Made by a program: the position numbers and the translations under genes. A stretch of DNA of 16,051 bases from Deltaproteobacteria bacterium (lineage in GTDB: Bacteria; DRYD01), in contig JAPYWL010000029.1 of the NCBI GenBank assembly GCA_028276365.1, positions 1 through 16,051 of the forward strand, read 5' to 3'. The notes under the pieces were generated by a model. The model ran no database searches, had not been told where the DNA came from, and saw only the letters and a list, made by a program, of their open reading frames with translations. Shown piece by piece: positions 3,058 to 9,014 of this stretch. Each line of letters opens with the position of its first letter. Positions within the stretch are counted from its first letter, which is position 1.

Positions 3058-3831
3058 ATGAAAAATCAATCCTTAGCTTCCTATATCATAATTTCCTTTA
3101 TTTTAACTATCTTTTTTATCTTCACTATTTTTCCTATTATTTTTGTTTTATTATTGTCATTTAAAAAAAATTTAATTAATAACTATTTAATTGTTTTAAA
3201 GAATTATGATTTTGGGATATATATTTTAAATTCATTGCTTGTTTCTATTGTAGGAGCGATATTAAGTGTATTAATATGTTTATTAGCTGCTTATTTTTTT
3301 TATAAAAATAAAACTAAATTGAGTTCTTGGCTTTTAACTTTTATTACTTTATCTTTTTTATTTCCTGCTGAAGCTAAAGTTATATATAATTTTTTTATTA
3401 TTATGAAATTGAATTTATTGGATAAATTAGTATCAGTATTTTTACCTTTTTTAGTGAATTTATACACTTTATTATTATTTATTCAAGCTTTTAGGTATTA
3501 TTCTAAGGAAATTGATGATTATACAGAGTTAGAAGGGTTTAATATTTTCCAAAAGATTTTTTTAATACATATCCCAATTTTAAAGCCATATATTATAACG
3601 GGGTTTATAATGAATTTTTTAACTTTATGGAATGACTTCTTATGGCCTTTAATTGTATTACAGGATGAAAAGAAATATACTATTCAAGTGGGGATAAATT
3701 ATATAGCTAAGTCTTTAATATTTGAGCCCTTATATTTTAGTGCCGCAGTGAGTATCTCTATTATTATTCCTATTCTAATTTTTATTGTTTTTAACAGATA
3801 TTTTAGTGTAAAAAATACGGTTAATATTTAG
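3058..3831 (+). CDS. Orphan sugar ABC transporter permease, MalG type
   Basis: A 257-residue inner membrane protein with about six transmembrane segments, of the binding-protein-dependent transport permease family (MalG/CUT1 branch). The cytoplasmic coupling loop (EAA motif) is at 151-177: EIDDYTELEGFN followed by IHIPILKP, with the invariant Gly at 160. The conserved WNDFLWPLIVL (191-201) is typical of MalG-like permeases. In this family the protein pairs with a MalF-type permease, an ATPase and a solute-binding protein, but none of these is nearby. The ATG at 3058 is the first possible start because an in-frame TAA stands at 3049-3051, and no Shine-Dalgarno precedes it. Length and the hydrophobic N-terminus suggest a complete protein. 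The substrate cannot be told from the sequence. Confidence 0.88.
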   Translation: MKNQSLASYIIISFILTIFFIFTIFPIIFVLLLSFKKNLINNYLIVLKNYDFGIYILNSLLVSIVGAILSVLICLLAAYFFYKNKTKLSSWLLTFITLSFLFPAEAKVIYNFFIIMKLNLLDKLVSVFLPFLVNLYTLLLFIQAFRYYSKEIDDYTELEGFNIFQKIFLIHIPILKPYIITGFIMNFLTLWNDFLWPLIVLQDEKKYTIQVGINYIAKSLIFEPLYFSAAVSISIIIPILIFIVFNRYFSVKNTVNI

Positions 3832-3874
3832 TAATTATAGCTATTATAGCAACTAAAATCCAGAAAAATATTAT
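3821..3874 (-). pseudogene. C-terminal tail of a third DUF3592-like copy (remnant)
   Basis: Read on the minus strand from 3874, 17 codons and a TAA give IIFFWILVAIIAIITKY. This aligns codon for codon with the last transmembrane segment of the DUF3592-like gene just upstream (ILCFWLILAVIAIS). The DNA matches without gaps at 32 of 43 positions. It lies past that gene's stop codon, in a different frame, and overlaps the convergent permease gene's 3' end by 11 bases. It has no start. It is either the remnant of a third tandem copy or an old duplication of the gene's 3' end. Confidence 0.55.
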
Positions 3875-4428
3875 ATAGAAATAGCTATAACTGCAAGTAT
3901 AAGCCAGAAACATAATATCATTAATATAATTAATTGACTAGCGATAGTAGGTATAGTTGTAACTTCATAAGGATTCTGAGGATTATATCTTATTTCTATT
4001 TTTTCCCCTACTGTAGGATGTCTACTATAGATTATTTCCTTTTTTATTTTTTTACCATCTACTAAAAATTCTACTTCTATTTTATACTCTTTTTCAGTAC
4101 GTATTACATACTCTTTTTCAGTACGTTTATAACTTTTAGAATATTTATAAGTTCTTGTAACAGTTTCTTTAATACTTAATACTGTGGCTTCTGTTTGTTT
4201 AAACTTCGTCAGATAGTAGTAGTTTTCTTTGAACAAAGGGAAGGTTTTTAGCAAAGCAAAAACAATAAAGGTATAGACAATAAAGAGTATAACAGGCCTT
4301 TTAGCGGAGATCGTTAAAGTGGGCTTATCTTCAATAGACTTTTTACTAGAGATTTTTAAATCAGATTTATCTTCAATCATATTAGTATCGTTTTGTTTAA
4401 TTTTGAATAAAGTTTTTCTTTCTTTCAT
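3871..4428 (-). CDS. DUF3592-like membrane protein with an rpsF-like N-terminus
   Basis: A 185-residue protein with a hydrophobic segment at 44-64, a central charged domain (about 72-160) and a hydrophobic C-terminus (162-185). The segment GEKIEIRYNPQNPYEV (141-156) fits the DUF3592 pattern of a glycine turn followed by YxPxNP; the function of the family is unknown. The N-terminal cytoplasmic part is unusual. Residues 1-15 repeat the start of the rpsF product with two changes, and residues 18-31 and 32-45 are a 14-residue tandem repeat. Residues about 102-117 contain RTEKEY twice. The ATG has a strong Shine-Dalgarno (AAAAGGAGGAAGA). The next gene upstream is a clear paralogue sharing YLTKFK-TEAT and KIEIRYNPQNPY. 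The family call is from pattern recall; the N-terminal duplication is read directly. Confidence 0.72.
   Translation of the reverse strand: MKERKTLFKIKQNDTNMIEDKSDLKISSKKSIEDKPTLTISAKRPVILFIVYTFIVFALLKTFPLFKENYYYLTKFKQTEATVLSIKETVTRTYKYSKSYKRTEKEYVIRTEKEYKIEVEFLVDGKKIKKEIIYSRHPTVGEKIEIRYNPQNPYEVTTIPTIASQLIILMILCFWLILAVIAISI
4084..4126 (-). repeat. 24-base tandem repeat inside the DUF3592-like gene
   Basis: The same 19 bases occur at 4084-4102 and 4108-4126, a period of 24 bases or exactly eight codons. On the minus strand they encode RTEKEYVI followed by RTEKEYKI in the extracytoplasmic domain. Keeping the frame suggests the duplication was tolerated in a translated gene. Confidence 0.8.
4294..4377 (-). 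repeat. 42-base tandem repeat encoding the N-terminal linker
   Basis: Codons 18-31 (4377-4336) and 32-45 (4335-4294) of the DUF3592-like gene encode IEDKSDLKISSKKS and IEDKPTLTISAKRP. The DNA is identical at about 30 of 42 positions, so this is an older duplication than the 24-base one further along the gene. It builds the charged segment between the rpsF-like leader and the first membrane helix. Confidence 0.7.
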
Positions 4429-4466
4429 TCTTCCTCCTTTTAAATTTGTTTTATTTTATTATTATT
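4385..4466 (-). repeat. Duplicated rpsF-type translation leader, copy at the DUF3592-like gene
   Basis: This segment matches the start region of rpsF in two blocks. Positions 4385-4439 match 5553-5607 at about 50 of 55 bases, covering the first 15 codons, the ATG and the Shine-Dalgarno. Positions 4438-4466 match 5645-5673 perfectly (29 bases) in the untranslated leader. Here the two blocks are adjacent, whereas in rpsF they are about 37 bases apart. Upstream of 4467 the similarity ends. Confidence 0.85.
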
Positions 4467-4599
4467 TAGCAAGGTAAAACACTAAAGATTATAAATATCC
4501 ATTTTAAAGATTATAGTATCTGTTTTAATGGAGACTTTTAAAATAGATAATAAATACCACATATTGCCCAAATTCAATTACATATTATGACAAATAGTA
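4467..4599 (-). promoter_or_regulatory. Spacer with possible promoter of the DUF3592-like gene
   Basis: Between the two DUF3592-like genes. On the minus strand TATAATCTTTA occurs twice, at 4515-4505 and 4493-4483, each beginning with a perfect -10 hexamer; no convincing -35 was found at the right distance for either. An imperfect dyad with CCATT/AATGG ends spans 4499-4531 around the first of them. In such AT-rich DNA this is only suggestive. Confidence 0.25.
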
Positions 4600-5076
4600 C
4601 TATTTTAATGTATAATTGTAAAGAAAAATACCAAATAATATAAGAAAAGTTAAAGCAAAAATAAGCCAATTAAATCCGATTTGTGCATAAATAACACCAA
4701 ATATTGTAAAAATCCAAGCAAATATTAAAATAGATATTGATATTTTAATTTCTTTGTCAGAAACTGCTTGATAAGGGTTTTGGGGATTATATCTTATTTC
4801 TATTTTTTGGCCTATTTCAGGTTTTTCGCGTGATGAATAAGTTACTTTTGTTCTTACTTGATTATAACCTGAAGAAAATTCTACTTCTAAATCACATGAA
4901 TAGTAATAGCCACCTTGTTTGCTCTTTATTTTATTTATTTTTTCTATAGCAAGTATTGTAGCTTCTGTCTTTTTAAATTTAGTCAGATATTTATAAAGAT
5001 CTGGTAGTGATAGAATAGTTATTAAGGTGGCAGGAGCTATTATGAGGCTGAGTGTAAAAAATGTAAAACCATCCAA
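4600..5076 (-). CDS. DUF3592-like membrane protein, second tandem copy, start uncertain
   Basis: A paralogue of the adjacent DUF3592-like gene. It has one N-terminal hydrophobic segment, then YLTKFKKTEATILAIEK, a domain of about 70 residues, IGQKIEIRYNPQNPYQAV, and two C-terminal hydrophobic segments. The two genes share 25 identical bases over the KIEIRYNP codons (3980-4004 and 4784-4808). The start is a problem. The frame remains open upstream to an ATG at 5121, but that ATG lies inside tRNA-Gly and the first ten codons would be tRNA sequence. The TTG at 5076 is the first start clear of the tRNA and gives 158 residues, but it has no Shine-Dalgarno. Either it is poorly expressed from the tRNA transcript or its true 5' end was lost. 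The body is free of frameshifts. Confidence 0.6.
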   Translation of the reverse strand: MDGFTFFTLSLIIAPATLITILSLPDLYKYLTKFKKTEATILAIEKINKIKSKQGGYYYSCDLEVEFSSGYNQVRTKVTYSSREKPEIGQKIEIRYNPQNPYQAVSDKEIKISISILIFAWIFTIFGVIYAQIGFNWLIFALTFLILFGIFLYNYTLK

Positions 5077-5091
5077 ATTTTTATATATATA

Positions 5092-5163
5092 AGCGGTAGA
5101 CGGGATTTGAACCCGCGACATCCAGCTTGGGAAGCTGGCGCTCTGCCACTGAGCTACTACCGC
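5092..5163 (-). tRNA. tRNA-Gly (anticodon CCC)
   Basis: A 72-base cloverleaf on the minus strand. The acceptor stem GCGGTAG (5163-5157) pairs fully with CTACCGC (5099-5093), and the discriminator is T (position 5092), as usual for bacterial glycine tRNAs. The D stem is GCTC/GAGC. The anticodon stem CCAGC/GCTGG carries the loop TTCCCAA, giving anticodon CCC, which reads GGG. The T arm is GCGGG, TTCAAAT, CCCGT with one G-T pair. CCA is not encoded. It lies 64 bases after rpsF, and a DUF3592-like gene begins directly at its 3' end. Confidence 0.96.
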
Positions 5164-5166
5164 TTT

Positions 5167-5175
5167 CTCCTCCTT
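5167..5175 (-). promoter_or_regulatory. Orphan Shine-Dalgarno in front of tRNA-Gly
   Basis: AAGGAGGAG on the minus strand, three bases before the tRNA-Gly 5' end. No start codon lies 4-12 bases downstream, since tRNA sequence takes that place. It could be the ribosome binding site of a gene whose coding part was replaced or pushed away by the tRNA, or simply chance. Confidence 0.4.
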
Positions 5176-5227
5176 GCTTACTAAAAAAATTAATTGCTTA
5201 GTTTTAATAAAAGTTAAAAAATAGTTC

Positions 5228-5596
5228 TTAGTCTTCTTTTAAATTTTTTCTAACTACCATGAATCTAACGACTTTTTCATTGTTTTTTAATAGATTTTGT
5301 AATCTTACTACATCATCTGGATAAGCTTTAAAATCAAATAAAACATAATATCCCTTTTTCATTTTGTTAATAGGATATGCAAAATCTTTTTCCCCTATAT
5401 TCTCTACTTTAATTATTTCTCCGTTATTTTCTGTAATAAATTTTTTGTAAGTTTCTATTAATTCATTTCTTTCTTTTTCAGAAGTATTAAAATTAATTAT
5501 AAACATTAGTTCATAGCTTCTTGGTTTTATTATCTGTTTTATCTCTTGGGTGGTATCATTTTGTTTAATTTTTAATAAAGTTTTTCCTTCTTTCAT
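5228..5596 (-). CDS. rpsF: Small ribosomal subunit protein bS6 with N-terminal extension
   Basis: 122 residues. From residue 27 the protein is a normal bS6, beginning RSYELMFIINFNTSEKE, then FAYPINKMKKGYYVLFDF and a C-terminal VVRFMVVRKN. bS6 binds 16S rRNA in the platform of the 30S subunit together with bS18. The family usually starts one or two residues before this R-x-YE; here about 26 residues precede it. The long form is preferred because the ATG at 5596 has a strong AAGGAGG site, while no start codon or ribosome binding site exists nearer the conserved core. The first 15 residues recur at the start of the DUF3592-like gene 1.1 kb downstream. The classic rpsF-ssb-rpsR operon is broken: rpsR is alone at 8802 on the other strand and ssb is not in the window. 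Confidence 0.95.
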   Translation of the reverse strand: MKEGKTLLKIKQNDTTQEIKQIIKPRSYELMFIINFNTSEKERNELIETYKKFITENNGEIIKVENIGEKDFAYPINKMKKGYYVLFDFKAYPDDVVRLQNLLKNNEKVVRFMVVRKNLKED

Positions 5597-5673
5597 ACTA
5601 CCTCCTTGATAGTTTATTAGTTTTATTTTCTAATTACTTCATATTTTTAAATTTGTTTTATTTTATTATTATT
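5553..5673 (-). repeat. Duplicated translation leader, copy at rpsF
   Basis: This is the rpsF partner of the 4385-4466 copy. The coding and Shine-Dalgarno block is 5553-5607, and the perfectly matching 29-base untranslated block is 5645-5673. The 37 bases between them (5608-5644) are absent from the other copy. Which copy is older cannot be told from this window. Confidence 0.85.
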
Positions 5674-5823: not shown

Positions 5824-6648
5824 ATGAGTTTTATTGAAATTAAAGATATAATTAATAAATTTTTGGGGGCTAAGGAAAATGGAAATAAAAGTAATAATCT
5901 GGAAAAAACAGATAAAATTCATGTAAAAATTAAAAGACAAGATAACATTGATAGCAAACCTTATTATCAAGAGTTTTTAATACCTTATAAAGAACATATG
6001 AATGTTATAATGTTATTAATGTATATAAGAGAGAATCCTGTGGATATAAATGGAGCTGAAGTTAAGCCAATAGCTTTTGAAGCTAGCTGTTTAGAAGAGG
6101 TTTGTGGTAGCTGCACTATGGTTATAAATGGCAAGCCTAGACAAGCATGCTCTACTCTGATTGAAAACTTAGAGCAGCCTATTGTTATTGAACCATTATC
6201 TAAGTTCAAAGTTATAAGAGATTTAATAGTAGATAGATCTAAAATGTTTGAGGGGTTAAAGAAAGTTAGAGCTTGGGTAGATATAGACGGTACATACGAT
6301 AAAGGCCCAGGACCCACTTATTCTCAAGAAATACAACAAATTAGATATGCTCTATCAAGATGTATGACCTGCGGTGCATGCTTAGAAGTTTGCCCTCAGT
6401 ATAATGACATAACCAATTTTGTAGGACCTTATGCTTTAGCTCAAGCTTATTTATTTAATCTACATCCAACAGGTAAAAATTTCGAAAAATATAGACTTAG
6501 TTATTTGATTTCTAAAGAAGGAATAGCTAATTGTGGGAATGCTCAATTATGTGTTCAAGTTTGCCCTAAATCTATACCTATTACTGATGCTATAGCTGAA
6601 CTTAATGGTAGTATAACTAAATATTTATTAACTTTAATATCAAAGTAA
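5824..6648 (+). CDS. sdhB: Succinate dehydrogenase/fumarate reductase iron-sulfur subunit
   Basis: 274 residues, the electron-transfer subunit that passes electrons between the flavoprotein SdhA and the membrane quinone site. All cluster ligands are present: Cys89, Cys94, Cys97 and Cys109 for [2Fe-2S]; Cys180, Cys183, Cys186 and Cys247 for [4Fe-4S]; Cys190, Cys237 and Cys243 for [3Fe-4S]. It resembles the Bacillus-type subunit (EEVCGSCTMVINGKPRQAC, IDGTYDKGPGP, CGNAQLCVQVCPKSIP). The conserved part begins at residue 31 (KIHVKIKRQDN), so there is an extra N-terminal stretch of about 30 residues with a short helix; the strong Shine-Dalgarno before the ATG supports this start. sdhA and sdhC, normally in the same operon, are absent; a small unknown gene follows 6 bases downstream. 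Confidence 0.95.
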   Translation: MSFIEIKDIINKFLGAKENGNKSNNLEKTDKIHVKIKRQDNIDSKPYYQEFLIPYKEHMNVIMLLMYIRENPVDINGAEVKPIAFEASCLEEVCGSCTMVINGKPRQACSTLIENLEQPIVIEPLSKFKVIRDLIVDRSKMFEGLKKVRAWVDIDGTYDKGPGPTYSQEIQQIRYALSRCMTCGACLEVCPQYNDITNFVGPYALAQAYLFNLHPTGKNFEKYRLSYLISKEGIANCGNAQLCVQVCPKSIPITDAIAELNGSITKYLLTLISK

Positions 6649-8801: not shown

Positions 8802-9014
8802 ATGGCTAAAAGAAAAAAATGTATCCTATGTAACAATAAAATAGATTATGTTGATTATAAAAATATAGATTTATTAAAGAATTTTATAAATGATAAATAT
8901 AAGATACAGGCAAAGAGAATAACAGGAACTTGTTCAAAACATCAAAGAAAAATATCTACTGCTATAAAACGTGCCAGAATAATGGCTTTAATCCCTTTTG
9001 TTCCTGAAGTTTGA
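8802..9014 (+). CDS. rpsR: Small ribosomal subunit protein bS18, zinc-binding form
   Basis: 70 residues matching bS18 throughout, with YVDYKNIDLLKNFI, RITGTCSKHQRK and the C-terminal IKRARIMALIPFV. bS18 binds next to bS6 on the 30S platform. Cys7, Cys10, Cys44 and His47 form the Cys-rich zinc site of the C+ type; many bacteria have lost it. The ATG follows a purine-rich aaagggggtt. The gene ends in TGA exactly at the family's end. It is alone, away from rpsF, and lies in a plus-strand run with argS and an unknown membrane-anchored protein. Confidence 0.97.
   Translation: MAKRKKCILCNNKIDYVDYKNIDLLKNFINDKYKIQAKRITGTCSKHQRKISTAIKRARIMALIPFVPEV

Follow-up and report, generated by a model that had tools for sequence, protein, structure and literature searches.

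The rpsF translation start is duplicated onto a DUF3592 membrane protein gene in a draft bacterial genome

How does a membrane protein gene come to begin with the translation start of a ribosomal protein gene? This question is raised by a locus in a draft bacterial genome (1.59 Mb in 124 contigs, 87% complete), of which we analysed the whole of contig C82, a stretch of 16,051 nucleotides referred to here as the window. On its minus strand, rpsF is followed by tRNA-Gly(CCC) and by two genes of the DUF3592 family, gene A and gene B. A permease gene (3058-3831) converges on gene B from the other side, and an sdhB-like gene (5824-6648) diverges from rpsF (Table 1). Named relatives of this rpsF lie in an uncultured bacterium metagenome-assembled genome (MAG; 89% identity) and in a Candidatus Calescibacterium MAG (46%), and the organism is therefore placed with that lineage; judged from these rpsF matches, the host is allied to Candidatus Calescibacterium.

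Table 1 Features of the duplicated rpsF start and its surroundings in the window
Feature	Position	Strand	Observation
rpsF (bS6), donor of the copied start, with 26-residue N-terminal extension	5228-5596	-	Pfam Ribosomal_S6 E 2.9e-29, domain from residue 28
rpsF Shine-Dalgarno, ATG and first 15 codons, donor copy	5553-5607	-	50/55 identical to 4385-4439
29-nt block in rpsF 5' UTR, donor side	5645-5673	-	exact second copy at 4438-4466
37 nt of rpsF UTR between the shared blocks, missing from the copy	5608-5644	-	from gapped alignment
Copied rpsF Shine-Dalgarno, ATG and 15 codons, front of gene B	4385-4439	-	50/55 identity
Copied 29-nt UTR block	4438-4466	-	exact match to 5645-5673
Gene B, DUF3592 membrane protein, recipient	3871-4428	-	PF12158 E 8e-6, just above cut-off
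24-nt in-frame tandem duplication in gene B	4078-4125	-	single copy in sister species
34-nt near-duplication (27/34 alike), TM2-coding end of gene B	3836-3906	-	
Gene A, DUF3592 paralogue of gene B	4600-5121 (frame)	-	PF12158 E 8e-6; 37-39% amino acid identity to gene B
tRNA-Gly (CCC), between rpsF and gene A	5091-5164	-	also directly after rpsF in sister species G001

A second copy of the rpsF start

The Shine-Dalgarno sequence, ATG and first 15 codons of rpsF match the front of gene B at 50 of 55 bases, compared with 32 for the next-best 55-mer in the window and a maximum of 36 over 200 dinucleotide shuffles of the window. Further upstream, a 29-nt block of the rpsF leader is fully identical to the sequence preceding gene B, a match that no shuffle yields and of which none is expected by chance. 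The shared blocks are contiguous at gene B and are separated in rpsF by 37-39 nt of additional UTR, and similarity past codon 15 or upstream of the 29-nt block does not exceed that in shuffles, leaving both ends of the copied tract sharp. The duplication of the rpsF translation start onto the gene of a DUF3592 membrane protein, as claimed in the initial annotation with about five differences in 55 bases and 29 identical leader bases, is thus confirmed with rpsF as the donor, and the recipient carries another gene's start beyond chance. The translations given there are likewise correct, MKEGKTLLKIKQNDT for bS6 and MKERKTLFKIKQNDT for the DUF3592 protein.

The genome is very AT-rich and contains weak look-alikes elsewhere (E 4e-7 to 1e-3), as might be expected if two A-rich, lysine-coding gene starts had come to resemble each other by chance or convergence. 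Chance similarity is refuted by the shuffles, however, and the exact 29-nt block is found in addition and in the same order. In a whole-genome search the E value of the second copy (5.8e-18) is some 11 orders of magnitude smaller than that of any match away from the locus (4e-7 at best), making coincidence extremely improbable. The match at E 4e-7 is an AT-rich tract resembling a Shine-Dalgarno sequence, upstream of a gene whose N-terminus is unrelated, and the three weak genomic matches that we inspected are AT-rich and fall at the starts of genes encoding unrelated N-termini or, in one case, at the end of a gene. An assembly or binning artefact might be suspected in a metagenome-assembled draft of this fragmentation and completeness, but a faulty join of identical reads would account neither for the 5 mismatches in 55 bases nor for the 39-nt difference in UTR, and both flanks are syntenic with the sister species G001; we consider such an error very unlikely.

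rpsF as the donor

The N-terminal extension of bS6 comprises 26 lysine-rich residues ahead of the S6 fold (5519-5596) and is conserved in all five of the family rpsF genes found, with the pattern MKxGKxLLKxKxN...EIxQxxKxRSYE spanning two genera. S6 matches from other lineages mostly begin only after it. Conservation across two genera indicates that the extension is native to rpsF, and by this comparison of rpsF starts it is an ancestral, conserved feature of the lineage and not a graft. The extension noted in the initial annotation is present, but the proposal that part of it is a mobile-looking leader is not supported.

A search of the own and related genomes with the rpsF leader likewise returned strong matches only to the G001 rpsF orthologue and to the gene B copy. 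Two copies at a locus where small local duplications are common could point to a dispersed repeat or regulatory cassette that spreads the leader to many genes, but a third copy is absent from the own 1.59-Mb genome and from G001, G002, G003, G005 and G006, and the extension belongs to rpsF in the whole family, so that spread of this kind is highly improbable. Viral contigs contained no match to the start sequence, and phage records yielded nothing but ordinary S6 matches.

The direction of copying emerges from a three-way site comparison of the Shine-Dalgarno sequence and 44 coding nucleotides of gene B, the own rpsF and the G001 rpsF. At variable sites gene B groups with the own rpsF at seven and with the G001 rpsF at one, and five changes are private to gene B. 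Together with the family-wide extension, this nesting of sites indicates that rpsF was the donor and that copying probably took place after the split from the sister species. On these site patterns the direction from rpsF to gene B is shown, the donor being identifiable and intact; the dating depends on few sites (7 to 1), as the leader is short. The shorter G001 leader contains no clear equivalent of the 29-nt block.

An older recipient and the route of the copy

Genes A and B both score 26.9 bits against the DUF3592 model (PF12158; cut-off 25.3), and their proteins have hydrophobic segments at either end, which in gene B correspond by hydropathy to two predicted transmembrane segments at about residues 44-62 and 161-185. 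The frame of gene A opens inside the tRNA gene, with a TTG near 5076 as the likeliest start. In each of the two species, the gene downstream of tRNA-Gly begins within about 10-15 nt of the tRNA 3' end (window 5076-5164; 2510-2593 of the sister locus L045), with a TTG or GTG start and no Shine-Dalgarno sequence, and the products are unrelated (DUF3592 versus methyltransferase).

Over their aligned part, genes A and B share 39% protein and 55% DNA identity, compared with 91-100% nucleotide identity between the leader copies; at 70% neutral identity the probability of a 29/29 match would be near 3e-5. By this measure of divergence the A-B paralogy is shown to be older than the leader copy. In G001, a methyltransferase gene occupies the place of gene A and of the 5' half of gene B, and a 3' fragment of gene B lies at the same place, adjoining the same permease (82% nucleotide identity over 88 codons). 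The A-B divergence and the fragment in G001 together suggest that the body of gene B most likely predates the leader copy. The own genome also contains a homologue of this methyltransferase gene of G001 (G000:C50:125-750, L080); it has in-frame stops and is apparently a pseudogene.

These observations bear on the origin proposed in the initial annotation, a tandem duplication of leader, rpsF, tRNA and DUF3592 gene followed by deletion of rpsF and the tRNA from one copy. Gene order fits this proposal, as do the spacings of 1207 and 1168 nt, and bacteria are known to capture promoters through tandem duplication (PMC11111574). It requires, however, that A and B be as alike as the leaders, and a fragment of gene B is already present in G001; a single tandem duplication is thus rejected as the origin of the recipient. 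A variant, in which a unit of about 1.2 kb was duplicated beside an existing gene B and a deletion then fused gene B to the second rpsF at codon 15 of the latter, evades both objections but needs two events. No remnant of rpsF past codon 15 and no second tRNA-Gly accompany gene B, the window holding one such tRNA gene, and we regard tandem duplication followed by deletion, in either form, as unlikely.

We instead consider it likely, from the sequence comparisons above, that an existing gene B captured, in frame, a copy of roughly 85 nt of the rpsF 5' end after the split from the sister species. The patch, consisting of part of the UTR, the Shine-Dalgarno sequence, the ATG and 15 codons, would have landed at the head of the already existing DUF3592 gene, about 1.2 kb downstream of its source, and would have replaced that gene's own ribosome-binding site. 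Codon 17 of gene B is an ATG (4378-4380), one codon past the copied 15, and given where the copied tract ends, Met17 is probably the original start, so that the join would lie one codon before it. Gene B is then predicted to be translated from an rpsF-type start and would have gained a lysine-rich N-terminus of 15 bS6-derived residues ahead of its first membrane segment. G001 lacks the 5' half of gene B and so does not display the state of the gene before the copy, and a 1.2-kb duplication and deletion beside an existing gene B would leave identical sequence.

Template switching and replication slippage produce short duplications, and template switching or illegitimate recombination may have placed the patch in this AT-rich locus with its other small duplications. 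In addition to the 24-nt tandem duplication and the 34-nt near-repeat, between whose copies the gene B stop falls, the linker of gene B after the leader contains a weak 42-nt repeat (28/42 alike); these three repeats suggest slippage or template switching as a local mutational habit. As in such events, the patch is short and sharp-ended with small tandem duplications nearby. By contrast, its source lies about 1.2 kb away, a 39-nt difference interrupts it and it is known from one genome.

Capture of promoters or 5' ends by tandem duplication or deletion is known in bacteria from activation of Salmonella histidine genes and from the citrate transporter gene in the E. coli long-term experiment (PMC11111574). 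Like the downstream genes in those captures, gene B gained the 5' signals of a neighbour by local rearrangement. Unlike them, it received a short stretch of UTR, a Shine-Dalgarno sequence and 15 codons as a translational fusion, the donor remained intact and promoter transfer is putative. The event is a genuine case of local, ordinary 5'-end capture of a known kind, with a recent-looking and clean record. It provides a natural example of a gene that obtained a new translation start and N-terminus from some 85 nt of a nearby ribosomal protein gene, no transposon being evident. It also shows at how little cost a rapidly evolving accessory gene can acquire the ribosome-binding site of another gene, and the locus documents an N-terminal bS6 extension conserved in this lineage.

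Expression and evolution of gene B

The initial annotation described gene B as driven by a ribosomal protein leader. The rpsF_leader is an mRNA structure in the 5' leader of rpsF that binds S6:S18 (PMC4647458), and the source of the copied tract is also an rpsF 5' leader. Unlike the known element, the leader here has no rpsF_leader match in an Rfam search of the locus up to E 1 and no significant fold, and rpsR (bS18) lies apart at 8802-9014. Apart from the tRNA itself, the only Rfam matches at the locus are weak ones to two unrelated families overlapping the tRNA, and these are not genuine. Neither leader folds into a significant structure (z -0.64 and 0.13), and a small hairpin around the rpsF Shine-Dalgarno sequence is within the range of shuffles. 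Promoter and terminator scans of the locus gave counts no higher than in shuffles, and the copied tract does not evidently include the rpsF promoter. With no known rpsF-leader motif and 39 nt of rpsF UTR missing from the copy, the description of gene B as driven by this leader is not upheld. A scan between rpsF and gene B found no terminator-like site, so read-through from rpsF is possible. rpsR is encoded on the other strand about 3 kb from rpsF, and the locus has no rpsF-ssb-rpsR operon.

The captured start may affect expression of gene B. Selection may maintain it, tying output of the membrane protein to ribosomal protein synthesis, although this seems quite improbable. If selected, the start would give a high rate of initiation, perhaps escaping regulation that acts through the 39 nt of UTR left out of the copy, and gene B would represent a naturally occurring translational fusion to the leader of a ribosomal protein. 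Comparison of gene B with the G001 fragment gave pN 0.19 and pS 0.15 (dN/dS near 1.3) and no sign of purifying selection, suggesting that gene B may be no constrained functional gene. Such a result is expected if the truncated G001 copy is decaying, and it lends no support to a constrained role for gene B, which is a fast-changing accessory gene.

Divergence between the two species also varies along the locus, the permease having a dS of 0.11 and the gene B fragment one of 0.17, against 0.65-0.83 for rpsF, sdhB, argS and dnaN. The low dS of the permease-gene B tract relative to both sides suggests that the tract was probably exchanged between the lineages by homologous recombination after their split, which blurs the timing of the leader copy. 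The tract covers 3058-4170 of the window and 462-1600 of L045. Immediately ahead of tRNA-Lys, at the end of the G001 contig, positions 1-297 of L045 consist of 13.5 copies of a 22-nt unit (AAAAAATAAAAACAGGTTGATT).
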